A DNA stretch of 64,000 nt. It comes from Sphaerolaimus hirsutus (lineage: Eukaryota; Nematoda; Chromadorea; Monhysterida; Sphaerolaimidae). Under the pieces are notes generated by a model that saw nothing but the letters and a program-made list of their open reading frames with translations, searched no databases and was not told the origin of the DNA. The position numbers were made by a program, and so were the translations under genes. The DNA lies in NCBI GenBank assembly GCA_964036195.1, contig OZ038450.1, forward strand, positions 13,270,701 through 13,334,700. The letters run 5' to 3'. This document shows positions 6,301-52,401 of this stretch, piece after piece (the first letter of the stretch is position 1; each line of letters starts with the position of its first letter).

Positions 6301-9300
6301 ACTACAAACATAAAAGTGAATTTATCAAAAAAATGTTTATACAAAAAAAATTACCTGTACAGCTCTCTCTTCGGCAACATCGTTCCCTCCAGCCCTCAAC
6401 TTTTGCACTTTCGTTTCTCCATACTCAATTGCGCGACTGATTTGAGACACAATTATCTTCTGATAGTCTGGCTCTGTTATGTTAGAGAGCGAGTGCTCGT
6501 ATTTGGCCAATGCATTGATAGCATATTTGGGCAGACTGTGACATCTGTCGCAATCTTGAACAAATACAGATTCATTCGATTTTGCCAAATTTTGACCGGC
6601 GACAGCACTGGTAACAACTGCTGCTAATTCTTGCACTTTGACAAGATCTTTTCCAGCCAGCTGAAAAAATGAAAGAACATTTCACGTCAAATCAAACAAT
6701 ACACGTGAAAAGTTTACGTCGAACTTTCCACGCCAAAGTTATCAAGACAAATTTTTCACTCCAAACTTTCCACGACAAAGTTATCAAGTCAAACTTTCCG
6801 CGCCAAACTTTCCACGCCAAATTACCCACGTGAACTATTTTACGTAAAACTTTCCACGTGTAAGTTATCAAGTCAAATTTTTCACTCCAAACTTTCCACG
6901 ACACAGTTATCAAGTCAAACTCTCCACGCCAAACTTTCCACGCCAAATTACCGACGCCAAACTTTCCACGCCAAACTTGAAATTTTTCACTCCAAACTTT
7001 CCACGACAAAGTTATCAAGTCAAATTTTTCACTCCAAACTTTCCACGCCAAATAACCCAAGTGAAATATTTTACGTAAAACTTTCCACGTCTAAAATTTT
7101 AAAGTCAAATTATTCAAATACGCACCCCAAACGCTAATACCGCTAATCAAATAAATATCAACTTACTGTCGACTTTTGTCGAATCGCCTCCGCTTTTTTC
7201 ACGACAATTTTTAATATATCATTGTTCGGTCGTCGCGCGATGATTTCTATGTACATGATAAAGTAATTTTACAATGTAAAATAAAAATAAACATACAAGT
7301 AAAGATTAATTTTAAAAAAAATCGGATCGGCCGAAATTTTTAGTACTAAGCACTACACTAGGTATTTTGCAAAAGATTTGCGAGCATGCATACGCGCAAT
7401 TACGTAATTATACATACAGTAAAAAAAACTGACTTTTTGCGGCAAGTTCACTTGCAGCTTTAGCCTCCTTCTGTGATTTGACACAATCGTCCACCATGAC
7501 TGCCACATGCTGTGAATTTCGTCTCTCTTCTTGGTCATTTGAATCGCCATCCATGGTGTACGGCGACATCACTTCTGTACGCTGGAGGCACTCCCACACC
7601 CTGTAAAAACTGGTGTAAAATGTCAAATGATATGGAAATTGTAAAAAGTCATTCATTGAATATAGGGTTCAAACGGGATTGACTTTTCGGGATCGGGATC
7701 GGGATCGGGATTCACTTTTTGAGATTTCGGGATCGGGATCGGGATCGGGATTCGGGTTTCGGGATTCACTTTTTGAGATTTCGGGATCGGGATCGGGATC
7801 GGGATTCGGGTTTCTGGATCGGGATCGGGACTGGTAAATCCCGGAACTTCACGGGATCCGGGATCGGGATCGGGATCCCGTTTGAACCCTAATTGAATAT
7901 GACTTGCAAAATTTATAACTGAGAGCTAAATTTGTCTAGTTATTTTTTCCATGACTTTTGACATTTTACAAGACTTTTTACAGGGTGTGGGAGTGGCACC
8001 CGCAGTTCATTTGGACCGCTACTAGAGAGGCCACTTTGAATACTTCTGGTGACTACAGTTTCACCGCGAATTTCGCCTCTGTCACTTTCGTTGCATGATT
8101 GATCTCGCTTTCTCTTTTTAGGCGGCGATTGTTTTTCACTCTTTTTTTGCGGCGAACTTTTTCCACTGCCCCTCTTGGCCACTTTGCCTTCTCCTCGGAG
8201 CACTGGTTTTTGCACTGCATATGAAATATACATGATTAATAATGATTAAGTTGTTATACAATGGAAAACTCATATAAATGAATAAATTTTATTATAACAA
8301 CACATCAGCAATATTTTGGAGTGTGTAGTAAATGGAGGGAAATTTTTTACTTATTTGAGTGAGTATTTATATTACATTATTTAAGAATGAAAATAAACGA
8401 ATATTTTCAAAAAAAACTAACCATTTGCCGTCAGAACTGGAGCTAACAGTGGCCACGGCAACTTTTTAATTGTTTTTTCCCTTTCACAAACTTTCTGCAA
8501 ATAATCTGTGTAATCATTGAACTCGTTTTCGGCGTCATCCCGTTCATTTCGTTTTCCAGTTTCATTTCTCATTTTCCACCAAGTGTTCACTTGTCTCTGG
8601 AAAAAAGTGTAAAAACATTTTGCCACGAGAATGGTGAGGTAATTATAATCCATATACCGAATACACAAAAATTGTGATTTTTTTTACCGATATCGAATTA
8701 AAAATCAACCCAACATGAAAAAAACGCAATCCCAATAGCAATCCCGTAATGTTGCATATTCCAATTACGGTTCAAACGGGATCCGGGATCGGGATCGGGA
8801 TCCCGTTTGAACCCTATTTATGTGTAAAACTATTATCTTACCGTATTATCGTCCCGCATCGACCTGAACAGGGCGTACATTTTCGACAAATATTGCTGTT
8901 TGTCTTCTTCGTTTGTTAGCGCAATGTATGCGTCCCTGTAATCATCCAAAATCGCAATCTTGTCAAATTTATCCACAACTTTTGTACACCTCGGGCTCCT
9001 GTGTGAAAATTAATATGTGTGTTCTATCGAATAGTGTGTGGTGTATTGATTAGTGTTTAAATTAAGTCACAATATAATGCTAATCTATAACCATTTATTT
9101 TTCACAATACTAGAGGCATTTTGACTTGGTATTATAAAGTACACTAACATATCATGGCTTATTATGACACAATAGCATGAACAAATGTAATCTTTGACAC
9201 TAAAAATGATTCAAAACCAATGAAAACATAAACAAGCACCAAAGGTTGGGGTCATGTTAAAATGCGCGTTTGCGCGCAATAAAAATGCTTAATACCGGTA

Positions 9301-12810: not shown

Positions 12811-15800
12811 ATGTCTGGCGGCGGAAAAAACGTTCAGGTATGTGAGTAGCCGATTTTCTAACTTTACTCGGTGTTAAAATTCGGTACAAAAGAGAGATCC
12901 ATTTCCAGTGTCCATTGACGACACCAGCTAGAAATGGGATGTTACATTTGGACTAATGGTAGAAATGTAACTAGGGATGGCCAGCGCTTTTTTTCAAGTG
13001 CTTTTATTTTAAAAAACCACAATTTTTTTTAAAAAAAAGCGCAAGTGTCCCAGCGCTTTTTAAAAAAAAGTGCGCTGGCAAAAAAAATTTGTACCTATGC
13101 AATACGTATTCTGTAAATTTTTTGCGCGCAAGCGCGAAATTTAACCATTACATTACCACTGATGGTTGTTTTCATTGGTTTTGTGTTATTTTAGTGTAGG
13201 GATGGCCAGCGCTTTTTTTCAAGCGCTTTTTTTTTAAAAAAACCGCTGGCAAAAAAATTTGTACTTGTGCACTAGGTATTTTGTAATTTTTTCGCGCGCG
13301 AGCGCAAAATTTCACATGCAAATTGCCATTGGTGGTTGTTTTCATTGGTTTTGTGGCATTTTTAGTGCCATTGCTTCTATTCCTCCATGGTATCATGTAA
13401 TAATAAGTTGTGATATGTCAGTCTAGTATATAATATCCAGCCAATGTGCTCCCACATACTTCTACAGAGTGTAACATCACTGTCATGCATTAGCCTTCTC
13501 TTACAACGTTATTTAAGCACTATTCCATCCCTATCTTCACTAGAAGTCATGATACATACACAAACAGCGATATACATAACGAGTCAACATAAAATAGGAT
13601 TTTTGTGGCAGAGATTAGGACTTATAATGCTATCTCATGATTACACAGCCATTCTATGGCTATATATCATCACAAGTAATACCACTTGTCTGATATACCT
13701 GTATATATTGATTCAGAACCCTATTTGGGAACTTTTTAGGTACCGTCTTGACATTTTTTGAAAAAAAGCGAAAAAAGCGCGTTTGTTGAAAAAAGCGCTT
13801 TTTTTTAAAAAAGCGGGGTCGTTAAAAAAAGCGCTTTTTTTAATCACTATTTTACTGTCATTCTTGCATGCTATCATATAATAATAAGCTGTGATATGTA
13901 AGTGTAGTATATAATATCCAGCCAATGTGGTTCCACATAGTTCTACAGTAGGAAACGCTAGTCTCAATGTATTAGCCTTCTTTTATAACATTATTTAAGC
14001 AATGTTTCATGCCTAAATTCATTTGAACTCATGAACATTTGACAATAAGCAATTTACATATTGAGTCGACATAAAAAGTGGTTTTTTTTTGCATAAAACC
14101 CCACATGTATTTCCATCCCATGGCTCCACAGCCATTCTATGAATATATATCATCACAAGTACTGCCACTTGTTTGACTTAGAACCATATTTGGGAGCTTT
14201 CTAGGATGCCAACGTGGAGGCCAACGACAACGTCGACGTCGACGCCAACGTCGACGGCAACGTCGACGCCGACGGCAACGTCGACGCCGACATGGACGTC
14301 AACGTGGACGCCAACGTGGACGGCGGCAACCCGGACAGTAACCCGGACGTCATAGTGGATGACAACCCGGACTCCAAACCGAGCGACGGCGATGGTGTCT
14401 TCAAGGTGCCATTCGTGCCATCCTCGGACCCGGACAATTATCCGCCTGCGATTGTTAGCCTGCAACGTATACCAGGTGGCATTCCGGCATCCTGCAAAGT
14501 AGCCTGTAAAATGTAAAATGACATGCAAACTGTGTAAAGTCATGTAAAACGTTACGTAAAATTGCACGTGAATACGACTTTTCACATTTTGCATGACATT
14601 TACCATTTTACATGGGTTTTACAGGGTCTCGGAGTGCCTCAAGAAGAAACTATGAAGACGCTGTTGGAGGAGGGAAAAGTTATTGTGAGCACAGAAGTCG
14701 CCAATGGCCGCCGTGGTGTGGACAAGTCTAGTGCGCAAGTGAGTAAGGCGGGTAAACAGTTTCGGGTGGTTTAAACTGTTTCGGGTGGTGTGATTTGTTT
14801 CGCCTGGTGGGTGTGAATTGTTTCTCAGGGTGTAAATTGTTTCCCTGGTTTTGAATTGTTTCCCGGGTTTTGAATTGTTTCCCAGGGTGTAAATTGTTTC
14901 CCAGGGTGTAAATTGTTTCCCGGGGTGTAAATTGTTTCCCGGGGTGTAAATTTTTTCCCCGGCTGTAAATAGGGTTCAAACGGGATCCCGATCCTGATCC
15001 CGGATCCCGTGAAATTCCGGGATTTACCAGTCCCGATCCCAATCACGAAACCCCAATCCCGATCCCGATCCCGATCCCGAAATCTCAAAAATACCAATCC
15101 CGATCCCGATCCCGAAAGTTTTCAAATCCCGATCCCGATCCCGAGAAACTCCCAAGTCCGGGATCCCGATCCCGAAACCACAATCCCGATCCCAATCCCG
15201 AAATCTCAAAAAGTGAATCCCGATCCCGATCCCGAAAAGTCAATCCGGTTTGAACCCTAGCTGTAAATTGTCCCATGGGCGTCATATCATTATATAAAAA
15301 GTATGTAAACTCGCAGGTGGTGGAGAAGAAGGTCATCAAAGAGGAAGCGGACAAGAGCGACAGCGATGACACGGACGTGGAGGAGGAAAACGACCCGGAT
15401 GTGGACGACGATGACAGTGACGAGGGACCGCGGCCTAAAGTAGCGAGAATTGTCAAGGCTAGCGACGGCCAAGTCTATATTTCAAAATTTTGTGTTTCTG
15501 TTTTCCCGATAGTGCAAAGTTTTCGTTCCGTTTTCTGTTTTCCCTGAAAGTGCAAAGTTTTCCTTCCGTTTTCTGGCAAGTGGAAAATTTTTTCTGTTTT
15601 CTGGCAAGTGGAAACAATTTTTGCTTTTTGTATTGTGTAAAAAATTATTGTTGACATCCCTAGTGTGGCATACATGTATTGATTGTAAACTTTCAGTTTG
15701 TCAACTTTGCACAGGCTGAAAACGACTCGAACGTCAGTTGCAGTCCGGATGTCACGAAATCCGGCTCGGATAAAAGTGACACATCGTGTGAGAGCCCCCC

Positions 15801-17823
15801 ACGACTGCGCACTGCTAGGGAAGTTATGCGGTCTTTGTACCCGAGGCGTACTTCGAAACTGGGATCTTCGGAAGGTATGTTGAACTTTTGAAATTTGGTT
15901 GTGTATGATTATCACGGGTATTAAATACGATGTTTGAAGTGAAGCAAAGGTGAATTTTTTTCAAATGTAAAACATTTTTCACAGTTAAATTATTTTAAAT
16001 AAATAAATAAAAACATTTTCGGGAGAAAAAACGTTTTCAAGTAGATTGTAGAAAAAATGTTTTTATCACATTTTTCAGATGATTGTGACTCCGGTGCTAA
16101 TGCGGATGTGGATACCGATGGCACCCCAAATCCAACAAGGGACTCGAGTCCAATACGGTCGGCCACTCCAATACCGGACACGCCAGAGAGGAGCACTTCT
16201 TCAGGGAGCATTTGCAGACTGTGTAAAGTGAAGTGTAAAATGTAAGATGTGACTGAAATTGTGAAAGGTTATGTAAAATGCCGGATAAAATGCGTACACG
16301 TTCGCAATTTTACATGGCGTTTTACATTACTTTTATCACTTTTCATGACATTTTACATTTTACACTGGTTTTTACAGCATCTGTGAGTGCCACTAGATGA
16401 AGTCGGATTCCCGATGGTCTTTCCGGCGGTCAACGTTAACGGCGGTGCAGTCGACGATGTTGTTGGTGGGCCCGCGCCCGCTGGGCCTGATGTTAGTTTG
16501 TTCGCGCGCGTTCAGGAAAGGCCGCCTGGTTGCAATCTCAGACCCTGTTAAGTGTAAACTAAATTGTGAAATGTTATTGAGAGTCTTAATTTTCACTTTT
16601 TTCATATCTTTATTTACATTGACGTTTTACATCCCATTTTACATGACATTTTATATGACATTTTACATCGTGTTTCAGATGATATTTTATAGGCCTTCCT
16701 ACATGACATTTTACATCCCATTTTACATGACATTTTATGTCATATTTTACATCGCGTTTTAGATGTAAAATGTTATACTCCATTTTACATGACACTTTAC
16801 ATTTTATATGACATTTGACATTACATTTTACATCGCAATTTTGATTATGTTATATATTACGTTTTACATCACATTGTAGATGACATTTCACCGTTTAGTT
16901 TACACTTTAGATGGTGTGGGAGTGCTTCCAGTTGTCAATCAGACGTTTGGTCAAGCGGCAAGCCACAGCAGTGTATTCACGCTTGTTAGTTTTTGTGTCT
17001 TTTTCAATTTTATGTGAAATCAAGTTTATGTGAAATTTTGCACTTCCATTTTTTTCACAGCGCACCACGAGGATGAAAATGACGGTCAAATACAGGTGGC
17101 TCTCCCACAGCTTGTGAAATGTTTTGTAAAATGTGAAATGTGATGCAAAGTTTGTGAAATTATGTAAAATGCCCTACAAAATGGAAAATATCGTGTTTTT
17201 TTTCATTTTGAACGGCATTTTACATCATTGTTGACGCTTGACATGGCTTTTTACATTTCACATCTCATTTGAGAGGCTGTAGTAGTGCACCCAGGACGAA
17301 TGTCAATGTGGCTTATGCGGATGTGCAGAGAAGCCCCCAAATGGGCCTCGGCGTCGTGAAATGCAGCATTCCGACAAACCTGTTGGTCAGGCGCCAATCG
17401 GATCTATTATGGGTTCGCGTCCAGGACAGCGCGTTAGTTCGGAGATTTTTAGGGGTACTTCTTTTGGTGACTTTGGAGGGTCAGTTTATGTCGCCTAAAG
17501 GAAGATCCATTTGTGATGTTATTTTGTTGGTGGGGGCGGGGGGTTGCACGCTCCTAAAGTGCCCACCCTATTCTAAACGCTGCGTGAAGGTTATCAATGG
17601 ATTACAGTAGATTTTTCATAGGAATGATCTATTTTTCATTTTATGATCTTATAAAAAAATGTTTTTTAGGGATGCTGTAATCGCAAATGTGCAACAGGAG
17701 CCCATTACTGTCACATTGGACATGGAGAATATGGGCGAAAAGAGGGGGTTTATGCTTGTCGGTTTGTGGCTGGTGGAAAACGGGATTGATTCGTGTTCTA
17801 TACATGCTACGTTGGTTGATTAA
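12811..17823 (+). CDS. 11-exon gene, unknown acidic/Cys-rich protein (459 aa)
   Basis: Exons 12811-12837, 14205-14475, 14644-14738, 15317-15472, 15715-15874, 16079-16204, 16397-16528, 16932-16970, 17061-17095, 17295-17479, 17670-17823. Phases match throughout and sum to 1380 nt ending TAA. The protein starts MSGGGKNVQ, then has a repetitive Asp/Asn/Val tract (NVDVDANVDGNVDAD), acidic and Ser/Pro-rich stretches, a short Cys cluster (DECQCGLCGC) and a C-terminal domain (ITVTLDMENMGEKRG). That domain aligns with the last exons of the genes ending at 31040 and 32721, and all three last exons start with the same split phase. Introns 2, 6, 7 and 9 are introner-type elements. Exon 8 is only 39 nt; its donor was chosen because it keeps phase. 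The function is unknown. Confidence 0.75.
12972..13290. repeat. AAAAAGCGC repeat (MITE-like), two units
   Basis: Two units start TAGGGATGGCCAGCGC and consist of A/T runs broken by GCGC, followed by aaaatttgtac and gcgcgcaagcg. Related pieces are at 13750-13850, 28760-28850 and 30478-30730. All are in introns or between genes. Confidence 0.65.
13750..13850. repeat. AAAAAGCGC repeat fragment
   Basis: Alternating A/T runs and GCGC or GCGG, in intron 1 of the plus-strand gene. Sequence around it (tgtgatatgt...gtataatatccagcc) occurs twice, near 13409 and 13889, so about 300 bp of this intron is a diverged duplication. Confidence 0.6.
14476..14643 (+). mobile_element. Introner-like intron D (168 bp)
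   Basis: Starts GTGGCATTCCGGCATCC after CCAG and ends TCTCGGAGTGCCTCAAG. Internal blocks tgtaaaatg and cattttaca are also inverted. Removal restores ATA CCA G|AA GAA ACT in phase 1. Triplets left and right are CAG and AAG. Confidence 0.88.
14750..14966. repeat. GTGTAAATTGTTTCCC tandem array
   Basis: About ten units of roughly 20 bp (GGGTGTAAATTGTTTCCC with variants) in intron 3, ending at the MITE at 14970. Frames through it are artefacts. Confidence 0.85.
14970..15259 (+). mobile_element. hAT-like GATCCC MITE
   Basis: Ends TAGGGTTCAAACGGGATC / GGTTTGAACCCTA, with the exact 8-bp duplication GCTGTAAA (14962-14969, 15260-15267). The target was the last unit of the minisatellite, so the array predates the insertion. 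Confidence 0.9.
15478..15665. repeat. Fragment of GGAAAAC-type MITE
   Basis: Units ttttctgttttcc, gcaaagttttc and tggcaagtgg are the reverse of the GGAAAAC repeat at 5665-6128; it ends ttgacatccctag. It lies in intron 4 of the plus-strand gene. Confidence 0.6.
16205..16396 (+). mobile_element. Introner-like intron E with mutated donor (GG)
   Basis: Inverted ends GGAGCATTTGCAGACTG and CATCTGTGAGTGCCAC, preceded by CAG and followed by TAG. Exact removal gives TCA G|AT GAA GTC GGA and keeps a long open frame, but the first two bases are GG, not GT. Either a non-canonical donor is used, or the nearby GTAAAG is used and the product is changed. Confidence 0.75.
16529..16931 (+). mobile_element. 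Introner-like intron F (403 bp)
   Basis: Starts GTTGCAATCTCAGACCC and ends GGTGTGGGAGTGCTTCCAG. Inside are repeated palindromic units of ttttacat/gtaaaatg that have expanded it to twice the usual size. Removal joins CCT G|TT GTC AAT in phase 1. Confidence 0.82.
17096..17294 (+). mobile_element. Introner-like intron G (199 bp)
   Basis: CAG|GTGGCTCTCCCACAGC at the left, GAGAGGCTGTAGTAGTG then CACC and CAG at the right. Removal joins ATA CAG|GAC GAA in phase 0. The triplets on both sides are CAG. Confidence 0.85.
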
Positions 17824-17843
17824 GGTTCTTTTTGTATTGTTCG

Positions 17844-19915: not shown

Positions 19916-22518
19916 CTAATCATCCATGAAATTGTTCACGTCATGGCAGCGCAAGGTGTCCGGGGGGACAAGAGTGTGCAGCATTTTGTAATACGCGTTT
20001 GCTTTCTTCTCTGTGCGCTTCACGTGTGCCACAAGGACTTCACCAGCCTTGGTCATCATGTTCACCTGGTGACACTCACATACCGTGTAAAAAGCCAGGG
20101 AAATCGTAAAAATGTTATTAATAGTGTCCATAGTCGTATAAAATGGCCTTACAGGTTATCTTACACGACTTTTCACTTTGCATGACATTTTACATTTTAC
20201 TTGTATTTTTACACGGTTAGGGAGTGTCACCTTGCCTTCAAACTCGTTCATGGCAGTGTTGGCCATCTTCAGTCGGTTGTTGGCCATCTTCAATTGAGCA
20301 TCAGCAGTGCGACAAAAATGGATGACCTCCTCCATCTGTATGATGTAGAAGTTTTTGTCACAAAATGTATGCATGGTGGGAAAACATGTACGCCAAAGTT
20401 ATCAAGTCAAATTTTTCACTCCAAACTTTCCTCGACAAATTCGCCAAATTACCCACGTGAAACATTTTACGCAAAACTTTCCACGCAAAACTTTTTACGC
20501 CACAGTTATCAAGTCAAATTTTTCACTCCAAACTTTCCACGCCAAATTACCCACGTGAAACTTTTTACGCAAAACTTTCCACGCCAAATTACCCACGTGA
20601 AACATTTTACGCAAAACTTTCCACGCCAAATTTATCAAGTCAAATTCCAAACTTTCCTCGACAAATTACCCACGTGAAACATTTTACGCAAAACTTTCCA
20701 CGCCGAATTTATCAAGTCAAATTTTTCACTCCAAACTTTCCACGCCAAATTACCCACGTGAAACATTTTACGCAAAACTTTCTACGCCGAATTTATCAAG
20801 TCAAATTTTTCACTCCAAACTTTCCACGCCAAATTACCCACGTGAAACTTTTTACGCAAAACTTTCCACGCCAAATTACCCACGTGAAACATTTTACGCA
20901 AAACTTTCCACGCCAAATTTATCAAGTCAAATTTTTCACTCCAAACTTTCCACGCCAAATTACCCACGTGAAACATTTTACGCAAAACTTTCCACGCCGA
21001 ATTTATCAAGTCAAATTTTTCACTCCAAACTTTCCACGCCAAATTACCCACGTGAAACATTTTACGCAAAACTTTCTACGCCGAATTTATCAAGTCAAAT
21101 TTTTCACTCCAAACTTTCCACGCCAAATTACCCACGTGAAACTTTTTACGCAAAACTTTCCACGCCAAATTACCCACGTGAAACATTTTACGCAAAACTT
21201 TCCACGCCGAATTTATCAAGTCAAATTTTTCACTCCACCAAACTTTCCTCGACAAAGTTATCAAGTCAAACTTTCCACGCTAAAGTTATCAAGTCAAATT
21301 TTTCACTCCAAACTTTCCACGCCAAATTACCCACGTGAAACATTTTACGCAAAACTTTCCACGCCGAATTTATCAAGTCAAATTTTTCACTCCAAACTTT
21401 CCACGCCAAATTACCCACGTGAAACATTTTACGCAAAACTTTCTACGCCGAATTTATCAAGTCAAATTTTTCACTCCAAACTTTCCACGCCAAATTACCC
21501 ACGTGAAACTTTTTACGCAAAACTTTCCACGCCAAATTACCCACGTGAAACATTTTACGCAAAACTTTCCACGCCGAATTTATCAAGTCAAATTTTTCAC
21601 TCCACCAAACTTTCCTCGACAAAGTTATCAAGTCAAACTTTCCACGCTAAAGTTATCAAGTCAAATTTTTCACTCCAAACTTTCCACGCCAAATTACCCA
21701 CGTGAAACATTTTACGCAAAACTTTCCACGCCGAATTTATCAAGTCAAATTTTTCACTCCACCAAACTTTACTCGACAAAGTTATCAAGTCAAACATTTC
21801 ACGCCAAAGTTTCCACGCCAAAGTTATCAAGTCAAATTTTTCACTCCAAACTTTCCACGCCAAATTACCCATGTGAAACTTTTTACGCAAAACTTTCTAC
21901 GCCGAATTTATCAAGTCAAATTTTTCACTCCAAACTTTCCACGCCAAATTACCCACGTGAAACATTTTACGCAAAACTTTCCACGCCGAATTTATCAAGT
22001 CAAATTTTTCACTCCACCAAACTTTACTCGACAAAGTTATCAAGTCAAACATTTCACGCCAAACTTTCCACGCCAAAGTTATCAAGTCAAATTTTTCACT
22101 CCAAACTTTTTACGCCAAACTTTCCACGCCAAATTACCCATGTGAAATGTTTTACGTGAAACTTTCAACGCCAAATTTATCAAGTCAAACTTACACATTG
22201 CAACTTTTTTTGTCACAACATGTATGCATGGTGGGAAAACTGAAAACTTACTGCATGGAGGGGGGTCATTGATGTCATCTCCTCACGAGCACTATCCTCA
22301 ACGCTCATGGGTGACGCAGTCGATACTGCACTTGTGGCACTGCTGACTTGCGTTGGCTGCACCCTGCTTGATGAAGACTGGAGGCGCCACTGCCGCCACT
22401 CGGGTGCCGCAAACGTTTGCGCGAAGTTCAGCTGCGGTACAGCAGTGTTCGGCCTGCTTGTCCTGCCATCTTGTGGCATGGCGGTGAACTGATGCTGGGT
22501 GAAGTCGTTGTTGCTCAT
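19916..22518 (-). CDS. 3-exon gene, unknown 173-aa protein
   Basis: Exons 22252-22518, 20231-20335 and 19916-20065 all join in phase 0 and total 522 nt including TAG. The ATG at 22516-22518 follows an in-frame TAG a few codons upstream, which fixes the start. Residues 1-89 are Gln/Ser/Thr-rich and probably disordered (MSNNDFTQHQ...). The rest is a likely coiled-coil of alternating hydrophobic and charged residues (MEEVIHFCRT, LKMANNRLKMANT, VKRTEKKANAYYKML), ending in an acidic tail. Intron 1 is almost entirely minisatellite; intron 2 is an introner-type element. Complete and intact, but I do not recognise the family. Confidence 0.78.
20066..20230 (-). mobile_element. Introner-like intron C (165 bp)
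   Basis: On the minus strand it starts GTGACACTCCCTAACCGTG after CAAG and ends CGGTATGTGAGTGTCAC followed by CAG. The two ends match over about 26 bp as inverted repeats (GGTGACACTC...CCGTGTAAAAA). Removal joins GGC AAG|GTG AAC in phase 0. Confidence 0.9.
20385..22190. repeat. 1.8-kb CACGCCAAACTTTC minisatellite with higher-order copies
   Basis: Units alternate among TTACCCACGTGAAAC, TTTTACGCAAAACTTTCC, ACGCC(G)AATTTATCAAG and TCAAATTTTTCACTCC blocks. Blocks are arranged in larger copies; 21076-21264 and 21443-21631 are the same sequence offset by 367 bp. It lies in intron 1 of the 173-aa gene. The long open frames on both strands here follow from unit lengths near multiples of three and are not genes. 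Confidence 0.92.
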
Positions 22519-23531: not shown

Positions 23532-23629
23532 GTTGAGTACACGCGAATTCTTTGAAGAAGCCGAGCGGCTACGTTACGAGGCGGATGGCTATGGAGCCCG
23601 GACTCGAATGAGTTCCACAGTGCCTCTTC

Positions 23630-24004
23630 ATGATCAAATTTCCAAATACAATTACCAAATTTCCTCCATTCTTATTAGTATATCACAGACTGCCACAATT
23701 GAATCAATTTACATCAGCAATTTTAAGTGAACATAATCCTCAAAAAATTTGGCGCACAGCCAAATATAACACCGAAATGGCTAAACAAAAATATGTGAAT
23801 TGGTTCAATAACCACAGGCATTCAAAAACCTTGGATAACATTCAAGTTGGTGATTTAGTTATGGTAAAATCAAATAATTCATCTAAATTAGATGTAAAAT
23901 ATTCCGGCCCATATAAAGTTTTATCAATCAAAAATAATTTAGTAACTGTGAAAAATGAAACTGATTCAACTGTTGACGACAGCGAAGTTCGATTGGAAAG
24001 ATAG
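23630..24004 (+). pseudogene. LTR-retrotransposon integrase C-terminus, fragment
   Basis: The last ~95 codons carry the integrase C-terminal fold known from Ty3/Gypsy-like elements: a basic helix (KYNTEMAKQKYVNWFNNH), then QVGDLVMVK, then the GPY/F module (KYSGPYKVLSI), with a closing DDSEVRLER before the TAG stop. No catalytic DDE core, RT or LTR is visible upstream, where a MITE (23097-23531) lies, so this is a truncated remnant. Confidence 0.75.
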
Positions 24005-29047: not shown

Positions 29048-29593
29048 TAGGGTTCAAACGGGATCCCGATCCCGGATCCCGTGAAATTCCGGGATTTACC
29101 AGTCCTGATCCCGATCCCGAAACCCCAATCCCGATCCCGATCCCGAAATCTTACAAATACCAATCCCGATCCCGAAAGTTTTCAAATCCCGATCCGGAGA
29201 AACTCTCGTGTCCGGGATCCCGATCCCGGAAAAATTAGTGGAAATTATGAAAAGTGAAATAATGACGTTTTTGCATGCAAAAAAGTGGATGCAAACCCCC
29301 AGCATTAATTTTATGCCACTTTTCTGGCATCCAACAGTGTTTTGAGGAGACCTTTATGAACAACTGTGAATGCCAGAACAGTGACGAAAATCTCTATCCC
29401 TACACCCAATCCCAATCACGAAAAAATGCCAATCCCGATCCCGTGACCCCAATCCCGGCCAATCCCGATCCCGATCCCGAAATCTCAAAATACCAATCCC
29501 GATCCCGATCCCGAAACCACAATCCCGATCCCGAAATCTCAAAAAGTGAATCCCGATCCCGATCCCGAAAAGTCAATCCCGTTTGAACCCTAA
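29048..29593 (+). mobile_element. hAT-like GATCCC MITE, long copy
   Basis: Ends TAGGGTTCAAACGGGATC and CCCGTTTGAACCCTA with the family core (tgacgtttttgcatgcaaaa; ccaacagt). No clear 8-bp duplication, so it may be a recombined copy. It lies directly upstream of the first family-beta gene. Confidence 0.85.
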
Positions 29594-36694: not shown

Positions 36695-36706
36695 TTCTCA
36701 ATGGCC

Positions 36707-39104: not shown

Positions 39105-40007
39105 CTAACATGCATAATTCTGCATACCTGCTATTATCAATTTATCCACGGCCTTCCTATGGGCCGGACAGGTGAGATGTGAGAGCCAGTCTTTGCGTGT
39201 TATACAATGTGATACACACTTTATACTAGAAACGGCATATCGATATTCATCAAGGGCAGGGCATATGTATAGAATATGGTTAAGGTTGCAAATTATTTTA
39301 ACATTAGATGAACTACACTTCACACAGTGTTTCCTAGTGCTACCATTATGACACCGTATAGCGTTGTGGCGTGCTGCGAACCAAGCCAAATTGTTGTAAT
39401 ACACTTTACTTGGGTGCATCTGTAATCCTACATCTTGTCTGACAGTTACAACTTTTTGCCTTAGCGCAGTCTCTTTCGCAACCGACATACGATAGGTGCG
39501 ACATGCCAGTTTAACGTTTGTTTTTGTAAGTGTTTTAGCTTCACATGACTGTAATGAAATGTCTTTACAACAGTCTGACATTCTATCAGTTAGTAATCTA
39601 AACCCCCTTTTTGTCAACCTAACATTGTTCATAAGAGATTCTTCACATAACATCGCCTTTTTCAGTAATCTATCAGCATTAAGTGAGTTTGCATAATTTG
39701 TGTAAGTTATTGTCATCTGACGATATCTATCCGACGGTAGTTCACCACCTAAGTCTAATAATAGACTGTCACCGCTGCATGATTTGGGTAGTCTAACGCA
39801 ACGCTTCATTGTCTGAAGGTATAGCTGATCCATTTTCTTAAGTAGTCCCGTGTTGCACCCCGTTACTTCCAGACCGTACATACTGGCACTTTCTATGTAT
39901 GATTTCCAGGCTATTTTTCCATATAACAATGGTTTCGTAGTTTTCTGTGAAGAAAGTATCGCCAGACTGCTATGTTTGAGAAATTTATTGTAACATGATG
40001 TTATATG

Positions 40008-40010
40008 TCA
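40008..40010 (-). other. In-frame TGA inside the RT reading frame
   Basis: On the minus strand TTC AAA TGA CAT ATA lies between the RT domain (ITNDLQPFK) and the C-terminal domain. The frame is the same before and after, with no other stop for 9.2 kb. Recent nonsense mutation, sequencing error or read-through are all possible. Confidence 0.85.
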
Positions 40011-43000
40011 TTTGAATGGCTGTAAATCATTGGTTATTGTGACGCCCAGATATCTTATCTCTGTTGTTTCCTTTATACTATTAAGCGATTTATTACTATC
40101 GTAACCCAATTGCCATTCAATGTTATGTGTTGGTTTACCCCATCTCAGTACTGATGATTTTTCTTTGTTTATCGACACGTTCCATCTCCATGCCCATTTA
40201 CTGAATATATGCATCAACTCTTGTAACTCATATTCTGTATTGGACAGTAGCACAATGTCATCAGCAAAGAATAGTCCCGGAAGTTTAGGTTGTTCTTTTC
40301 CTAATTTTGCACCAAATCCCGTGTTCAGTAAATCATACGCTAAATCATGCATGTATATTGCGTATAATGTAGGGCTCAAAGCGCAGCCTTGGGCTACCCC
40401 TATTGGGTATTCCATTTCCTCACTAACGTAATCCCCATACGTCATTTTAACACTAATATTTGTGTATGCATTTTGTATTGCACTTATAAGTAAACTCGGT
40501 AGACCCATTGTTTTCATTTTAAACCATAGCTTCTCCCTATCTACTCTATCAAATGCCTTAACGGCATCTACAAAGCACCCATAAAAGTTGTTTCCCTGAG
40601 CCTGGGCATAATGATAGCATGTATTAAGTATATGGACGTTGTCACATGTTCTTCGGTTCGGTCTGAACCCCCCTTGTAACTCTGTAAAAACATCGTGCTG
40701 CTCCATGACATGCATTAATCTATTGTTTAGTAGAACCATATACAGCTTTTTCACATTACATGAAATACCTAGAGTTCTATAGTTTTTCATGTTGCACCTA
40801 TCTCCTTTTTTGTGCAACAATACCATTTTGCATACTATTGCATCAGGCGGTATCGGGCTACCGTGTAACCAAGCATTGTACGTATTAAGAAGGACAACCC
40901 GTGTACTCCCATCCATATGTTTTAGATGTTCATGATGAATATTTGACGTTCCCGGAGATTTATTCAGCTTTAATTGTTTTATCGCATTGTCTAATTCCAC
41001 CAAGGAGAAATCAGATGTTAGATTATCTATGTCAGATTCCTCAAAGTTTCGATTGCCTACTTCATAATATGTTGGTGACCCTGGATTCGCCTTCATTATA
41101 TTCTTCCAAACCATACCCATTTCTACATTCATTTCCGTCTCAGTTTCAATGAGTTTTCCATCTTTGTTTTTCATTGCGGTAACTACTTTACCAGTTTTCC
41201 AATTTTTATTGATGTGTTTGTAGATAGTGTTCATTTCTGCCCCCTTATTTTGCAGTGTTTTTTCTATATTTCGATCGTTTGATTCGAGATATAGTCTCTT
41301 TTTTTCCTTCTTGAGTCTATTTTTGAGTAGTGTTAGTTCATTTTTCAGCTCGGCTGTATAACTCACTCTAATTTTCCTACATGTTTTCGCTATGTTTCTG
41401 TGAAGTTTTTGAATTGAACGAGGTACAGATGGTTTGTGTAATTTAACACTTCTGTTGGCTGTCGCATAAGACGATGCAGACTGAATTGACTTAACGATTT
41501 TTTCGTATGATGAATTTTCGGGTATATGTAAGACCTTTTTATAACTCACCCACTCATCTCCCTTTGGTTTAACTGTCAAAGATGTCGGTTTTTTGCATGG
41601 TTTCATATCGTTCACACGTAGAAGAATTGCATGATGATCTGATGATATTGGACATACCACACCATTACTATCAATCTGACCACTAATTCCATCGATGGGA
41701 AAGTTCGAGAAGCAAAGATCGATGACTGAGCGTGCATTTGACCGTTCATATGTCCATAATTCGGAAAAAATGTTATTTATCAACGTCGGACCATAGAATG
41801 CCCTCCAATCCCTTACTAGTTTACCATTCATGTTTACGTCAGCATTATTTCCTTCAATACCTAGTTCATCATTTCCAATATGGCCGTTAAAGTCACCTAC
41901 TAGAATTGTACGCTGTGAGTATTCCGTATGGTGTAGTAACATTTCACCTAGTTCTGATAGGATAGTTTCATTCTTCTCGGCTACCGAGCTTGATTTCTTA
42001 CATTTACTATTGTTTTCTAGATAGCATGCCACTATATTTTGAGTTTGCATTTTGGTTTTAACAGAAATGCCAACTAAATTATTTTCATTTTTAAACGTAA
42101 GTATTTTGAAGTCAATAGCTTTCTTGATGTATATCGATATGCCTCCAGTTTCTAAGCTTGTTTTAAAAGTGTGTACCGCACTATACCCTGGTATACAGAT
42201 TGCATCTGTAGCACATCTGAAATGAGTCTCCACCAAGCATAAAATATCTGCACATGCAAGGTTAGCAGCTGCAAATAGTTCCTCCTTTTTCCATCGTAAT
42301 GAGCGAACGTTCTGATACAAAATTGTAAAAGGTATAATAAGGGATTGTAAAACCACTGATGTTGAATCAGTTATTTCCGAAGTTCCAACTAGATCACCAA
42401 TTGCATTTATTGGTCGTATCAGTGTGATCACAACGAGTAGGACAGTAAAATATTTGACCTGTGACACACCGCGGATAAATTTCAGAAATGTTGACCAGAT
42501 ATGTAGTATCCCTGTAATAGTTACAGTCAACCATAACAGATATTTAACAAGGGCAACAATTCTGGAATTTTTTATCCCAAAACTAGCAAAATAACCCAAT
42601 TTAACGCCAAAAGTGTAAAAATTCACATCCTTCAATTTTGATGCAGTTGACGCGCAAAGTGCTGCGTCAAGGTGCGATTCCCCGGTGTTTGATTCATGTT
42701 CACTGCTCCAGATTGATGGGCGGAGCTTGATGCGGCAGCCTGCGTCGTGGTAATGTTGTAGCATTGTAAAAAAAGAGGGTTTTGTAGGAGTAACTGACAT
42801 TTTTAATAACTCTCTCCTTGTAACTTCACTTAGCACCATATTGCCCAATTCTGACGTATGGATGCCATCGCGGGCCATCATACGCATAAACAAGTCTATG
42901 CTGTCATCACATTTACACATCCTAAACTCATTGCAGATAAACTGCATCAGTGGCAAAACAACAACTTTTTCCAAATTATCTGTCACAAGGTCAATTAGCG

Positions 43001-43909
43001 ATCGTTCCAACATCAAGTAGAATTTTAAAGTGTCAGCTAACAACAAGCGAGACCACCCATGTTTAATGTGCCGATTCATTGTCGGCCCTATTAGAGACAG
43101 CAAAATTTTTCCTGAGGGCATTAGTTTCAGCCCTGTCGAATTACAAACAGTTGAAACACACTTGAAAACACCCGACAAGAAAAAGTCATCGACGCATGTG
43201 CTGCTGAATTTTTCGGAAAAGTACTGTTCGGCATCACATGCGTCCAGAACACATCTGATGACAACTGCGTCATAACACGTATCAAACTGCACATCGGACA
43301 ACGCGGCACATACAGTTGGCAGGCGCTTGCCATTGAACAACGATTTACTGCTGTGCACCGAAACGGGCACGTTGTGGCTAGCACAATCATTCCCAAACAT
43401 CATTTGAAGCGAGTGGGCACATGAATCCCCGATTAGAAAAACGGAAAAAAAATATTCGTATGCGTCAACCCTAACTGCACCGAATTTCGAGCATGTATTG
43501 ACAAATGCCGGCACAGAGTCACAATCCCTATAGGCAATTTTCGGACCTAAATCGCACGAAATGTGTAAACTGCGCAAAATTTCCGAAGGTGATTTTATTT
43601 TGTGCCCAAAAATTTTATCACTGAAAACCCCGGTCTCCGGATTTTTCGCAGTTGATTTGACAAATGATGCCAGTGTTTTGGCACATTTTGCCGCCGTAAG
43701 TGGATTCAAGTTGTTCAGCCGCAGCCCTTTCACAATCGTATGCTTCATACGTGATGCGCCAATGCCACGAACCTGATGTGAGGGGGGTAGGTTTGTTGTC
43801 CGTTTAACGAAACGTAATCCCGCGGCTGCGCTTGCCTGGGCATGCCCCGCGTAACTGCCATCAGTCGGCTGCAGGCTCGCCGGCCCGGGTGCACCAGTTG
43901 TCTGGCGCG

Positions 43910-46900
43910 CTGCCAAATGTGTAAAAGTCGATAAATGTTCTGTTTCTGGAGTAAAATACGTATGACATAAAACTCTAAGCAAAAAATCGCACAAGCAACT
44001 CGTATAACCTGGTTGACTGTCGACCAGGGGTTCATCGTCTCCGAAGTTTGGCTGAAGCATACGTTGGTGGCGCCCTTGCCGCACAAGTGTGTCCATTTGA
44101 ATATCAGGCCCGTGCGCAACGTTCGCAGCTGTAAATTTGTAGATTTGTAGCAAAATAGCATCGTAGCGAATGTAATCACAAAGTATGTAAGAACAAAGTG
44201 TACCTGTGGCGGATAATTCTGGAAAGTCGCCATCCCAGTAGGGCTCTGTGTCGACCAGAGGCTCTTGCATGGAAAGCAGGTCACTTTGTGCTTGTTGGTG
44301 CGCTGTTCGTTGTTGGCGCACACCGCCGTATGCACCACGCGCTGTAAAGTTCGAAGGCATCGATTTAGTGCATGTAAGTTGTGACAGTAAAGTGAGCATG
44401 TATATAAAAAAAGTATAATTCAAACCTCTGCCCCGTTGGCCAGCACCAAACGTTTGCCCGCGACGTTGTCCGCCGCGGCTGTTAAAATTCCGTGGGCGGT
44501 TGTCCTGAGAGCGTCCGTTGCCCACCGACGCTGGTTGCTGTGTGGGCCCATCTGATCCACGTTGGTTTGTACGCCCGCCGCGCGTCGAAATTGGATCCAA
44601 TGTGCCTTTTCTCAACTCTGCATCATTTCGCTTCTGTAAATAGTACACAGTATTGTAGCATAACCTAACGTTGAGTTTAACGAAACGTTGTAAAACGTGT
44701 AGGCGCTCACTTACTTGGACAACGTACCACTGTGGCGCCACCAAATTTGCTTGCGTTCTGGCATACAGATTTCCAAAGTCCATAGCACAAAACTGTTTTT
44801 CTTTTAGAAATTTTCCAAACAGTCTTTTGTCCGGGACATATTCAAGTTCACCATTGTCCATTCTCTTGGAGAACACATTCTCTTCCAGTAATGTCTCTCT
44901 GATCTCCATTAAAGCTTCGCCATAGAGGTTCATGTATGGGGCCAGGAAGTGGGGGCCGTCCGCAGTGGAGACCGTGCACTGCAATGTGTGTAAATCACTT
45001 TTTGACAGTCTGTCGTCAGTCATATGTATAGAATCATAGTTCACAGAAGTATGATTAACAGACTTTTCCACAAAATATTGAAAATGCAGCTGAGAGCAGA
45101 TGTTTGGCACTATGCCAAGATGTTTATCGCAAAGTAATGTGAAATGTGTTGTTTTAGAGCGGTAGTCTACCGAATAGTGTAAAACCACACCTTTAAGTAC
45201 TATCGCCTTTATGCAACCAAAAATCAAACTTGGCCGTGTGCCAAAATAAATCAAAATACTTACTTCTAGCCTACCCTTGTTGTACCCACTCATCATGGCG
45301 CCCTTCCATCCATAGTTAGGTGATTCCCCGGCGCAGCGAATTTCCCTATTTGTGATTATCCAGCCGCCCTCAACCTCGTCGTGGCCGGACGCCCAAAGTA
45401 ATTGCCTATGAACAATGTATTGCATAGGTTTTGGAAGCACCAGTGTGTTTTGGTTCCTACAAAAGTTTTTTAGAAAATCAATGATATGTGCGTAACCATT
45501 TTGTCGACATATTTCCCTCAAGGACAAGTATTTGTCATTTGTAACCCAAATTACTGAAATAATCGCCATAGTCAAACTAAATCCCGAGTCAGTTGTCATG
45601 TTACATGATGTATTCAACTCTAATGCCATGAAGTGTAAATTTGTTATTTCAAGTCGATTTTGTGACCGTTCGTAGGTTTTCAACAACATACGGACTGAAC
45701 TTTTGTCAACAAATACAATAACTAATACTAACCGTAAACCCACGTTGTTTTCCGCGGCATTTTGCAAAATAATTAGAAGCGCCGTGTACGCAAACGTTTT
45801 TTTGGCCGCATCCACCGAGTCATACAAAACCCCGGCCCCCGATTGCCGGCCGTTGCCAGATTTGAACCACACCTGGCTTGTGTCAACATTCTGGTCTTTC
45901 ACAAACCGCCCAATGTTGCCCATGATTCGTTTGCAGTGTCTGTTAAATTCGTGGAATTTCGGGTCCCAGGCCAGGCCATCTGTCACAGCAAAGAGCTGAT
46001 GCAGGTTTAGCGCAGTACTTGCCAGCGTTTTGCTCCCACAAGCCTTTGCCTCAGCCTGTGTAGGGAAAGATATAGATTCAAATCGTAAAGCAATCCCGCA
46101 AACTCTGAAAAAAATACGTAATTTGATGGCGTACACTACCCACGTCATGTAACTCACATAGATCATCGCGGTGAGGATGCAGTCGAAGGTTGCCCCATCA
46201 TACTTCACTTTCCATTGGTAGTATCCCCCAAAGGGATCGGTTGGGTCATCAAAGCATATCACCACGTCACTGGCGCCCGTCTTGTGCGTGTTTGACGAGC
46301 ACTCGGGCGCGGACGAGGACGGAGCCGTGTCCATCTGAAACATATTCGAGTTAGTAGTAGTTATCATATTGAATATGAACTTGTTTAAAAAAATGAATTT
46401 TAAGATGTATAATACATTATAAAATCTTATATTTGTGCATGAAATTTCAGGATAAGTTTCCCATAAAACGGTGGTATGTGTATGTAGATGAAAGAAATGT
46501 TGAATGCTATGCCACTGATTTAGTGAATTGAATGTAACTTCGCTGTATGTCCTAGCGAAAAATAACAATTTTTGGGAAAGTGCCAAATACCCCCAATTCA
46601 CCTCAGATATCGTCTGAATCGTTCTCGGACGTTTTGCTGAGCGCACAACTGTGTGCACTTGATCTGTCGAAGGTTCTTTACGCTTGATTGCAGATGTCGC
46701 CGCGCTGGATGTATGTACTTGTCCATTTTCTAGCGCCATCAAACGAAGCCGTATGGCCGCTAGCGAATCGTCCATATCAGAAGAGTTCTGCGTATGCACA
46801 TATTTACATTGATTATCAGCCAGAACTGTAATCTTTAAAGCAAAACTACAAAATTCTGAATTAATCATGTTGTCTTTTGTAATTACATATGTGTAAGTGT

Positions 46901-47300
46901 GAATTTTTATTTTCTGACTATTGTAAAACAATATCAATACGGATGACCCTCCATTTACCTTGCGAAAAGCCGCCGTTTCATCCTCCATTTTTTTCAATTT
47001 TTCTGATATTTTTGAAATTTCGGTCTGCAACTCGGATTTTGTGTTCGCAGACATCTGACCCATTGCCGATGCGATCTGAATTTCCAGCTGAAATGTAATT
47101 GAAAATGTCAATTTACAGTGTGCGTGCATAATCAATATTCCTATATTTGGCTGCTCTAGGCAAATACAAAACATTTCAGTTTTTTTAACCGAATTTATCA
47201 ATTGTAATATGAAAATAACTGTGTGTAATTTGAAAACACAGCGTATGTGCAGCGATATCATGCAACAATGCCTATTAAGATGGATAACTCCAAACCGCAC
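43910..47300 (-). other. Nine stop-free, in-frame introns in the LINE-like frame
   Basis: Introns (lengths): 47088-47300 (213), 46788-46958 (171), 46335-46601 (267), 46056-46157 (102), 44979-45263 (285), 44634-44714 (81), 44342-44425 (84), 44129-44203 (75), 43910-44008 (99). Each starts GT (e.g. GTAAGT, GTGAGT, GTAAAT) and ends AG after a pyrimidine- or T-rich stretch; donor and acceptor phases agree. All are divisible by three and none has an in-frame stop. Their translation is rich in Y, C, H, I and F, like AT-rich non-coding DNA, while the flanking exon segments are ordinary protein. They may be spliced or read through. Confidence 0.7.
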
Positions 47301-48439
47301 CCTTTGGATGTAGTCCCCCTGCCGGCGCCTACTTTCCTCTAAATCCCTAATCAAGTGGGCCAAATAAGCAAATTCTTGAGCATTGGGTGTAGAATTGGGT
47401 GATTCCAAAAGTTTATCCTCTAAAAACCCAGCCATTTCATACGGGTGAAGGTTAGTCCCAGCCACCAGGTGTCCAGCTGACGCATGCACCGAAATTGGCT
47501 CCCAGTCAACCATTTCGGGTGGAGTCGTATCGCAGCCTGTGTTATCAATACGTTTAAATGTTTGAAACGTTCCAGTTTTGGCTATGTGCCAATATGTCAA
47601 TTTACCATATTTAATTAGTTTAGACGTATTATTATACATGTAGTTGTGCAAAGACGTAGTGTTTGTACACATTTTCAAATGTATCACCCACACGTTTAGA
47701 ATGGCAGAAGAACGACCAAAATCACCTTTCATGCGGGCTAGCGACACCATTTTTGTCGCTTTGGAAAAGTCCGTGCGAACCACTACGCCCGAATCAAGAC
47801 GCAAGAAGCCCGTGTGTGATGCGTAGTACCCCGTACATTTAGATGGGTCAAAACCCACTCCATAATTGACATAGGGCACTTCGTCACCGGAATCCTGCCC
47901 ATCAGTATTCGATACACAATCCCCCGGTTCAACCAAGGCTTCAGCGATTATTAGGGCATTGTGGTCACCCTTTTCAACAATGACAGGTTGTCTAATAGTG
48001 TCAGTCAGTTGCGTAATGGGATTGTCTGGTTGCGTAGCGGGCAACGTTGTTTCATGTACCGATTTGACCACCGAGCGAACAGATGCAGCCGTGTCTGGAC
48101 GTTCATCTTCCAAATTCGAATCTGCACACGTAAATCTACGTATACATACTGTGAAATATAACAGTGATTCAATGCACCAGCACACATCTCTCAACGTTCT
48201 AAAAACGTGTTGTGTAACAAACTCTTTAGTATTTTGCATGATATTTGTTATAGTCTTTGTCGACGTTTTGGTGGATAACGATTCATTCGTCGAAAATACC
48301 TTTACATCCAATGGGATAAAGCTCCGTAGACAACACACCAATGGGATAAAGCTCAGTAGACAACACTCTGATTTAGATCATTGTGATTAGATGCGTTTTT
48401 CATTTTTTTTCGTTTACACAGCACTCACCGTGAAACCCT

Positions 48440-48575: not shown

Positions 48576-48588
48576 CGTGTAAATATGA

Positions 48589-49605: not shown

Positions 49606-49616
49606 TGTAATTCTAT

Positions 49617-49816: not shown

Positions 49817-49952
49817 GGAAGAAATTGCGCGCTTGCGCGCAAAATTTTTACATCGAAAATATTTAGAAAAATTTGCATTTTCCGGGACTTTTTTGATCTA
49901 ACCCCGGAAGGAGGGGGGCTGCAGCCCCCCCCCCCCTGGATACGTCCTTGGA
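49817..49952 (+). mobile_element. CAGGGACG-type MITE, right part only
   Basis: gcgcgcttgcgcgcaaaa, ttttccgggactttt and the closing C run with ctggatacgtccttg. The left part is in the gap. Confidence 0.75.
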
Positions 49953-50057
49953 TTTGAGATTGTAATTTTTTTGTTATTTCGGAATATGAAATTGGGCAAC
50001 ACACGGGATCGGGATTTTGGTATAGTGATGGTTATTGCAGACTTTCTTGCAATAACC

Positions 50058-52401
50058 ATGCGTAAATGTAAACAGTTTTGGATGGATGCGAGAAAAGTGA
50101 CATGGAAAATATTCGGAATATGGTCACATTATCGTGATATTTATTTAAAAATTTTGATTTTGCATTTGTTATTTCAGATTGTTAGCCGGCGATTGCATGG
50201 CCGGGTGTACCAAATTCGATTCGAATTCTGCAGCCATCTGCACAAGCATTTCGAAGATGAATACGGTCGGTGTGCCGGAACAATGGTGGGTGAATTTAAA
50301 TTATTTTTACTTTGGTGCATGCAGTGTAAAAATCTCTTAAATTTAAAACCACTTTTACTGTCTAGGATGGAATCTAAATACTTTTCACATCTAAATTTTC
50401 ATGTAGAAATTTGTCTTGTCAACATTTCACGTCACTCACGTGAAACTTTTTACATCAATAATTTAATACGCAGATATATTTCCGCAACGAGTCGGCGTCC
50501 ATTGCCGATAAAGACCTTCGACACGGCCCACTTCGTGCAACCAGGTGGCACTCCCAAACCCTCCACAGTGTGTAGTGTAAATTGGAAAGGAAAATTCAAA
50601 GTAAACTGTCATTTGTCAAAAATTTTCAGATATTGTTCAAATTTTTTTTTCAATGTTTTAATTTTATGGAGAGTTTACTTTGCATTACACTTGCAATTTA
50701 CACCTTACCTTACAATTCAGAGGGTTTGGGATTGCCACTAGGCGTTTTGTGGATAAAATTGTGCACCGAATGTGACAAAAATGGATATGGATGCGGTACG
50801 ATGGAACAACTCGAAATGATGGAACACTTTTCGTTCTATGCGCCCATCCCGGAAGGATATGAGGTTATTTACATTTGTAATTTTTTATGAATTTATTTTT
50901 TTTTATAACATTATATACCGAAGTATGTTGCTTTTTGGCGTTAAATATTTTAGTAATATGTAATATTATAAAATAAATTATAAATATGTTCACAATTTTT
51001 TTTTCTGTCTGAATTCCGGACTTGGGGAAACAATACCGAAATTGAGAGCAGATACTTGAGAGTATTTTGGGATAGGGATATGGGATTAAATGTTTTCTTG
51101 ATCTGGTTTTTTTATTTTTAGAGTGCGGTGTCCCATTTTGTTTTTCGGGAGGTATCGTGTCTGTCAACTGCCGGAATTTCTCTGAATCACGGATACTAGT
51201 ATAGATCTATGTTTAAGATATGTTACTTTACATTACGATAATCTCATTCATTTATAGGTGACAATTTACGCGGATAGATCGACGGAATTCGTGTCGAAGG
51301 ACGTCGTCAAGACAGTCGTAGACACCGCGTACGGGCTTTGGAACACGGGCAAATTGAAGAAATTAACGTTTTTCGGCTGTGGAACTTTCGAAGACTTGAA
51401 GGCTTTCTGCGAGGTATGTTTAACGTTCAAATGTGCAAAACCAAGATTACACCATTGTACATCTTCCATGTGAAAATTTTTACGTAAAATGTTTGGCGTA
51501 AAAAATGTATGGTTGTTTGGCATGTTTGGGGGGTTGGGAAGTTTGGCGAGAAAAATTTGACTTGAAAAGTTTAACGTGGAAAGTTTGGCGTGAAAAATCT
51601 GACGTGGAAAGTTTGGCGTGGAAAGTTTGGCGTGAAATATTTGACTTGAAAATGTGACGTGGAAAGTTTGGCGTGAAAAATTAGAATTGAAAGCCAAACT
51701 ATTCACGTCGGATATTTTACATAATCGGTTTGCGCCATCATTTTACGCTGATATGTATTTTCACGGTATGAATTTACATTTATATTTCATAATCTTAATT
51801 CGAGGGAGAATTTTACATAATCGGTTTGCGCCATCATTTTACGCTGATATGTATTTTCACAATATGAATTTACATTTACAATTTATCATCTTAACTCGAG
51901 GGAGGTAGTTCATTTTTCGTCACTTTTTCTAGGTAGTAGTTGTTCAAGGGTGGGGTACAAATATGTCGAATGTTCCCCCCCCCTAAAATGTTTAGGAAAA
52001 TGTAACTTCACGGGCACTTATTCGAGTATTTACTGTATACATGCCATGTATATATTTATTTACTTTTTTAGTTCAACGTTTACAATTTACAGCCGCTGGA
52101 CATTGATAACAAGCACTTATATCGCAACGAATTGGATCGGATGCGCGGGGAGCACTTCATCGGCAAGGTGGATTGTCAAAAGTTGTGCGAAATCGAGAAC
52201 ATCGATCAATCTTTTTGTTCACACTGCATGGACGATGCATTGCCGCTGTTCCCGTCGTTGCGCCAAAGAGGCCGCCACATTAGGTTATTGGATGAATATC
52301 ATGAATATGGTATTCACAGTAATGGTAAAGGGAAGCAGGAAGGGCACGTGGAAATTGATTATGATGATAGTGGAAAGCGTTCGTTTAAGGCAATTTTGTG
52401 A
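50058..52401 (+). CDS. Family-alpha gene 2 (5+ exons)
   Basis: Exons 50178-50285 (IVSRRLHGRVYQIRF), 50474-50544 or -50567 (IYFRNESASIADKD), 50742 or 50721-50863 (VLWIKLCTECDKNG), 51258-51413 (VTIYADRSTEFVS), 52072-52401 (FNVYNLQPLDID...KAIL, TGA). The frame is open back to an ATG at 50058, so the start is uncertain. It aligns exon by exon with the gene at 24089-26274, and the shared introns have the same phases. The intron at 50545-50741 is an introner absent from the paralogue. With exact removal the frame shifts by one; with inner sites (donor at 50568, acceptor ending 50720) it stays open and both element ends become coding. Cys pairs CTEC and CSHC suggest metal binding. Function unknown. 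Confidence 0.68.
50545..50741 (+). mobile_element. Introner-like intron K (197 bp), frame-shifting
   Basis: CAG|GTGGCACTCCCAAACCC at the left, GGGTTTGGGATTGCCAC and TAG at the right, a clear inverted repeat. Unlike the other eight, exact removal does not keep the frame fixed by the paralogue (ACC AG|G CGT leads to a stop). Inner splice sites CCACA|GTGTGT and TTCAG|AGGG do keep it. Confidence 0.8.
51480..51720. repeat. GGCGTGGAAAGTTT minisatellite
   Basis: Reverse-orientation units gtggaaagtttggcgtg and gaaaaatttgacttg, the same family as 20385-22190. Intronic. Confidence 0.85.
51712..51905. repeat. Direct duplication of about 95 bp
   Basis: The block from ttttacataatcggtttgcg through cgctgatatgtattttcac to atcttaa.tcgaggga occurs twice in tandem (about 51712-51806 and 51808-51903) with few differences. 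Confidence 0.85.

Follow-up and report, generated by a model that had tools for sequence, protein, structure and literature searches.

Nine introner-like introns that probably derive from one small inverted-repeat transposon family in 64 kb of Sphaerolaimus hirsutus DNA

Known introners and the family in this window

Intron birth from transposons is a known but seldom observed process, and the elements involved, called introners, are a leading candidate for rapid intron gain. The introners of Micromonas and Aureococcus, reportedly described by Huff et al. in 2016, are said to be DNA transposons that make introns, with the element end providing one splice site and the duplication the other. Here we analysed 64 kb of eukaryotic DNA (contig OZ038450.1, positions 13,270,701 to 13,334,700; hereafter the window), in which tandem repeats, palindromes (98 pairs) and retrotransposon pieces are abundant. 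Nine introns in this window are very probably copies of one small non-autonomous transposon family with inverted repeats, that is, introners resembling miniature inverted-repeat transposable elements (MITEs), which means that new introns were probably made here by a mobile element. The window would add an old, diverged family whose gain can be read from two adjacent paralogs, and it points to a testable explanation of why palindromic transposons would be well suited to become introns.

In the available part of a 2022 survey (Gozashti et al., PMC9860276), 548 introner families are reported from 175 of 3,325 genomes, with two animal groups only, and the examples given there include 4-bp duplications and elements that bring one splice site and co-opt the other. 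The family in our window resembles the DNA-transposon introners of that part of the survey in its end-to-end similar introns in apparently unrelated genes, its inverted repeats and its probable short target duplications, and it resembles the Chrysochromulina introner in that the predicted 5' splice site is carried and the 3' site is co-opted. However, the Chrysochromulina introner is described there with 4-bp duplications and no inverted-repeat evidence, whereas here we found a 3-bp triplet and long inverted repeats, in a comparison by description and not by sequence. According to the accessible text on the introner elements of Amoebophrya (PMC7789003), these also have hairpin-forming inverted repeats that join the exon borders and no internal transposase, and their borders carry direct repeats of 3-5 nucleotides (nt). 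But they were defined among non-canonical introns and have inverted repeats of 8-20 nt, while our introns have GT in 8/9 and AG in 9/9 and are palindromic over nearly their whole length. Symmetrical sister stwintrons and fungal introner-like elements, as far as the excerpts of PMC8469720 describe them, share the symmetry, the terminal inverted repeats, the predicted hairpin and the seamless insertion into exons; they differ in having no flanking duplications, with RNA or break-repair routes being proposed, whereas here the exonic NAG agrees with the last intron triplet and copies outside recognised exons occur.

No such family is named among the listed titles and abstract openings of the literature on introners and inverted-repeat intron gain, in a search by subject and not by the end sequence itself. 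Nor did it turn up in the accessible portions of one paper on tunicate splicing (PMC13326754) and one on a mirusvirus (PMC12768974), or in a reference entry (PMC12879420). The family would be a further case of a known introner type, and we do not claim that it is unpublished.

Ends, frames and paralogs of the nine introns

All nine segments of the original prediction were located exactly, in six genes and on both strands, and the element borders coincided with the intron borders, right triplet included, in 9/9. Throughout, introner borders and splice junctions are predictions based on frames, motifs and paralogs. Two introners lie on the minus strand, namely 7582-7999 (phase 0; it contains a nested MITE, both its ends match the motif described below, and its removal restores the frame, while the unspliced form would have six in-frame stops) and 20066-20230 (phase 0). 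The other seven lie on the plus strand: 14476-14643 (phase 1), 16205-16396 (phase 1, with a degenerate left end and a good right end), 16529-16931 (phase 1; its internal TTTACATGACAT repeat is expanded), 17096-17294 (phase 0), 30139-30293 (phase 0), 31797-31981 (phase 0) and 50545-50741 (phase 1, with the most diverged interior). Phases 0, 1 and 2 had all been claimed; phase 0 was found in five copies and phase 1 in four, and no phase-2 copy was found.

Most of the introners are 155-200 bp long, with terminal inverted repeats of about GTGGCACTCCCAGACCCTG, and both ends of all nine are versions of this sequence, with GT at the start in 8/9 and AG at the end in 9/9; GTGGCACTCCC is the end sequence of the family. 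The inverted repeats expected of a DNA-transposon introner are thus present, and, judged by the shared ends, similarity that spans the intron end to end and does not reach into the exons was found in 9/9. A 19-nt end motif, which was built from the copies themselves, scored 11.7-30.8 bits at 17/18 ends, and at the 18th (the right end of 31797-31981) it scored 9.8 bits at the fixed position and 14.8 bits with a 4-nt shift, pointing to a small insertion. These scores bear out the claim of an inverted-repeat end common to all nine. The window contains 32 matches to the motif above 7 bits, compared with 10-17 in five shuffles. In a leave-one-out analysis the scores were 9.1-29.4 at 16/18 ends, the exceptions being the left end of 16205-16396 (2.8) and the right end of 31797-31981 (0.1), and 11/18 ends exceeded 17.1, the top single-strand score of 20 Markov shuffles (mean of maxima 12.1). 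Taken one by one, several ends are therefore weak, and it is the paired ends at intron borders that carry the case.

A profile hidden Markov model recovered all nine copies with E <= 3.2e-24 (16529-16931 in pieces), as is the case by construction because the profile was built from them. In a lenient BLASTN comparison of the nine sequences with the low-complexity filter off, 8/9 were linked at E<1e-5, with 14476/30139 as the closest near-end-to-end pair and 16529-16931 joined via internal repeats only. The copy at 50545-50741 was unlinked at this threshold and matched none of the other eight at E 1e-3, and megablast gave no links among the nine. One of the nine thus stays unmatched by BLASTN even among so few sequences, and surveys that rely on BLAST may therefore count too few of the diverged families. 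Near-identical copies had been expected, and this expectation failed: the mean pairwise identity over ten copies (the nine and a tenth at 55004-55174) was 60% (45-71%), which indicates that the family is old or diverse and not a fresh burst.

Exact removal of the introners left an open frame within the exons in 9/9, one more than had been predicted, and every copy would introduce at least one in-frame stop if retained. The summed open length was 1126 nt with exact borders, compared with 706 and 651 nt when the right flank was shifted by 1 and 2 nt, respectively. ORF (open reading frame) length did not settle the frame for 16205, 16529, 17096 and 30139, the last of which was settled by its paralog, and the frame control of 14476 was marginal (128 vs 84 and 120). 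Six gene models gave nothing above a curated cut-off in Pfam, and a database search with two models (gene G and the alignment of the paralogs N1 and N2) returned no homologs for either, so that coding status rests on the frames and the paralog pair. That the host genes are unrelated was borne out in part: when N1, N2, the last exon of gene A and gene G were compared with the window, the sole convincing cross-match was N1/N2.

N1 (30076-31037, plus strand; exons 30076-30138, 30294-30445 and 30854-31037, upstream exons not settled) and N2 (31644-32718, plus strand; exons 31644-31796, 31982-32037 and 32565-32718) are tandem paralogs with 38% protein identity over 114 columns (E 6e-25). Each of the two genes can be read as containing an ordinary phase-2 intron (30446-30853 in N1 and 32038-32564 in N2, both plus strand) in the same codon column of the alignment and with the unusual donor GTTGGT, these donors having been selected by phase from several GTs. 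The introner of N1 at 30139-30293 is absent from N2: it interrupts GQRLQ|IRCKYP, and the N2 counterpart GQRLK|VTCCYP is unbroken. Conversely, the introner of N2 at 31797-31981 interrupts AVNLQ|GKLEAGTLG, and N1 has the unbroken ALFE|GELHGQNLG, with one residue of length difference nearby. At the uninterrupted sites the sequences are AAG|GTC and GAG|GGT. An intron-free homologous site was thus found for 2/2 testable copies, the other seven of the nine having no homolog for comparison. Reciprocal introners beside a common intron are predicted by insertion after duplication, so the N1/N2 pattern supports and strengthens the reading as intron gain for these two copies. An internal acceptor 19 nt upstream of the end of 30139-30293 was rejected, as its use would disrupt the reading frame that agrees with the paralog.

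Target sites, hairpin folding and a possible mechanism

As a comparison set we picked 15 ordinary introns in these genes from GT/AG ends and frame. The exon triplet that precedes an introner equalled the closing intron triplet at 21/27 positions, compared with 17/45 in the ordinary introns (p 0.0014), which is in line with a 3-bp target duplication, and an exonic AG stood upstream of 7/9 introners and 3/15 ordinary introns (Fisher p 0.010). A G at position +5 was found in 0/9 introners, compared with 13/15 ordinary introns (p 4e-5), so the predicted donor is the element end, which probably leans on the exonic NAG. The ordinary donors of the window vary after GT, with GTTGGT, GTCAGT, GTTAGT and GTCTAT among them. 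At 16205-16222, either a GG-AG intron is present or splicing shifts in frame to a GTAAAG donor that lies 18 nt further in, which would add six codons.

These features are consistent with a mechanism in which a transposase would use the inverted repeats to insert the element into an exonic NAG, duplicating these three bases. The left inverted repeat, which begins with GT, would provide the 5' splice site behind the exonic NAG, and the 3' splice site would come from the duplicated NAG at the right, so that the spliceosome could excise the element precisely and the message would recover its pre-insertion sequence. Because the element is palindromic, both orientations would work, if the target is NAG on the sense strand.

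The search of the window with the profile found two further related stretches, both outside recognised exons. The tenth copy, which the profile matched over 55004-55174 and whose element is placed at 55004-55171, has no recognised flanking exons and its right side is not AG. A weaker related palindrome at 53420-53579 lacks the standard terminal motif, reaches E 4e-12 in nhmmer and folds as a hairpin. Nine of the eleven copies lie in the 7% of the window that is exonic (p 2e-9), where the exon calls are our own and partly depend on these introns.

When folded alone, the nine introners formed end-to-end hairpins with z of -7.7 to -12.5 (7582-7999 without its nested MITE), and 55004-55174 reached -6.8; the 8/15 ordinary introns that were folded gave 0.0 to -3.6, the seven longer than 330 nt being skipped. 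The two arms of a copy also matched each other better than the arms of other copies. With 70-nt arms the mean alignment score was 30.6 within copies and 21.2 between copies, and 0/100,000 permutations were as good (6/100,000 with the 19-nt ends); the own arm ranked first in 7/10 copies. The result was robust to omitting 55004, 7582, 50545 or both 55004 and 50545 (0/20,000 each). Arm identity over aligned columns was 0.78 for own and 0.76 for other arms, nearly equal, so the effect sits in the gapped score and the permutation and not in raw identity. Many masters, homogenisation of the arms or selection for pairing may each be the cause. Several master subfamilies would predict that the relationships of left and right arms agree, and no clear correlation between them was seen (Mantel r 0.21, with 3305/20000 permutations as high). 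The non-exonic 55004-55174 also matches its own arm best, which argues against splicing selection as the sole cause.

A better-looking acceptor, TTTTACAG, lies inside the right end of 5/9 copies (19 nt from the end in four and 35 nt in 31797-31981), and a related AG lies at 19-21 nt in three others. With 40-nt flanks, the unpaired probability of the terminal AG averaged 0.50, compared with 0.18 for 23 internal AGs (p 0.003, the AGs within one intron not being independent). We hypothesise that the RNA, folded end to end as a hairpin, may hide internal acceptors such as TTTTACAG and leave the terminal AG more open. More tentatively still, it is possible, if on the whole doubtful, that the palindrome is what makes the introner spliceable: the stem would bury such acceptors, the AG of the target duplication would sit at the open base, arm pairing would be maintained in each copy while the copies drift apart, and the lineage would be one in which this way of making introns was not known before.

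Alternative origins and neighbouring elements

The introner-type origin that had been predicted is supported by the coinciding ends, the presence and absence in paralogs, the non-exonic copies and the triplet agreement. But a number of observations weigh against it. The triplets are identical in just 3/9 copies and differ by one base in the other six, so that a duplication is likely but not clean, and no duplication is clearly seen at 55004-55174, with GAG on the left and CGG on the right. The first bases of 16205-16396 are GG and not GT. A Pfam search of 25 ORFs and gene models from the window, which has 403 ORFs of at least 60 amino acids, found no DNA transposase, and the two non-exonic copies could lie in unrecognised genes. 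As to the masking of decoy acceptors, 20066-20230 has no TTTTACAG-like internal acceptor and the exact sequence is near the end in just 5/9; masking fails in 16529-16931, where the terminal AG is 0.01 unpaired, and is weak in 31797-31981 (0.21); 6/23 internal AGs have an unpaired probability of 0.5 or higher, and in 5/9 copies the 5' GT of the element is more than 90% paired.

Some of these features would also fit an RNA route, in which a spliced and folded intron RNA is reinserted through reverse splicing or through break repair, a route suggested for the symmetrical fungal introner-like elements and stwintrons. The strong symmetry resembles that of the fungal cases, 9/11 copies lie in exons and on the coding strand, and the target duplication is exact in 3/9 only. 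We regard this route as unlikely, given the two related copies outside recognised exons and a triplet agreement and exonic AG frequency above those of ordinary introns of the same genes. That the segments are unspliced insertions in broken genes or pseudogenes is very unlikely: the absence of a +5 G in all nine donors, the GG start and the two searched gene models without database relatives would agree with it, but the frame continues across all nine (four not decided by length) and the protein sequence of N1 and N2 is conserved on both sides of the introners. It is hardly credible that ordinary MITEs landed in older introns and look like introns by position only. The window is indeed rich in palindromes, and a second MITE does lie within the 7582-7999 intron, but the element fills the intron from the first base to the last triplet in 9/9, and the intron-free homologous sites in N1 and N2 contradict this explanation for two copies. 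The origin from a mobile inverted-repeat element is the reading we prefer.

The MITE nested in the first introner (7663-7891) has TAGGGTTCAAACGG inverted ends, TCCCGA repeats and a TA flank. It belongs to a MITE-like family, characterised by AGGGTTCAAACGG at the ends and by TCCCGA repeats, which is also found at 14971-15258, 29049-29591 and 2797-3858; one copy is inside an introner and one inside the ordinary intron 14739-15316. Large arrays with repeat units of 14, 28 and 42 bp, which are related to AAACTTTCCACGCC, occur at 20442-22192, 6702-7116 and 51535-51692, the latter two within predicted introns. When viral contigs were scanned with two patterns of the introner end and with patterns of two other repeats and of a piece of a LINE (long interspersed nuclear element), no relatives were found. 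Neither a tRNA scan with the bacterial code nor Rfam at its gathering thresholds gave a match in the window.

Among the 25 gene models and ORFs, Pfam gave LINE domains and otherwise only matches under curated cut-offs. The LINE-like frame at 39105-48377 (minus strand) is very long: it runs for 2789 codons to a TGA and continues in the same frame for another 300. Endonuclease and reverse transcriptase lie at its end, and some 2000 of its residues have no Pfam match at E 0.01. A database search with the reverse transcriptase returned 17 distant matches with 22-27% identity (catfish, insects and plants). Finally, a frame at 23612-24001 (plus strand) has sub-threshold matches to integrase-type domains of retroelements and is perhaps a Ty3/gypsy remnant.

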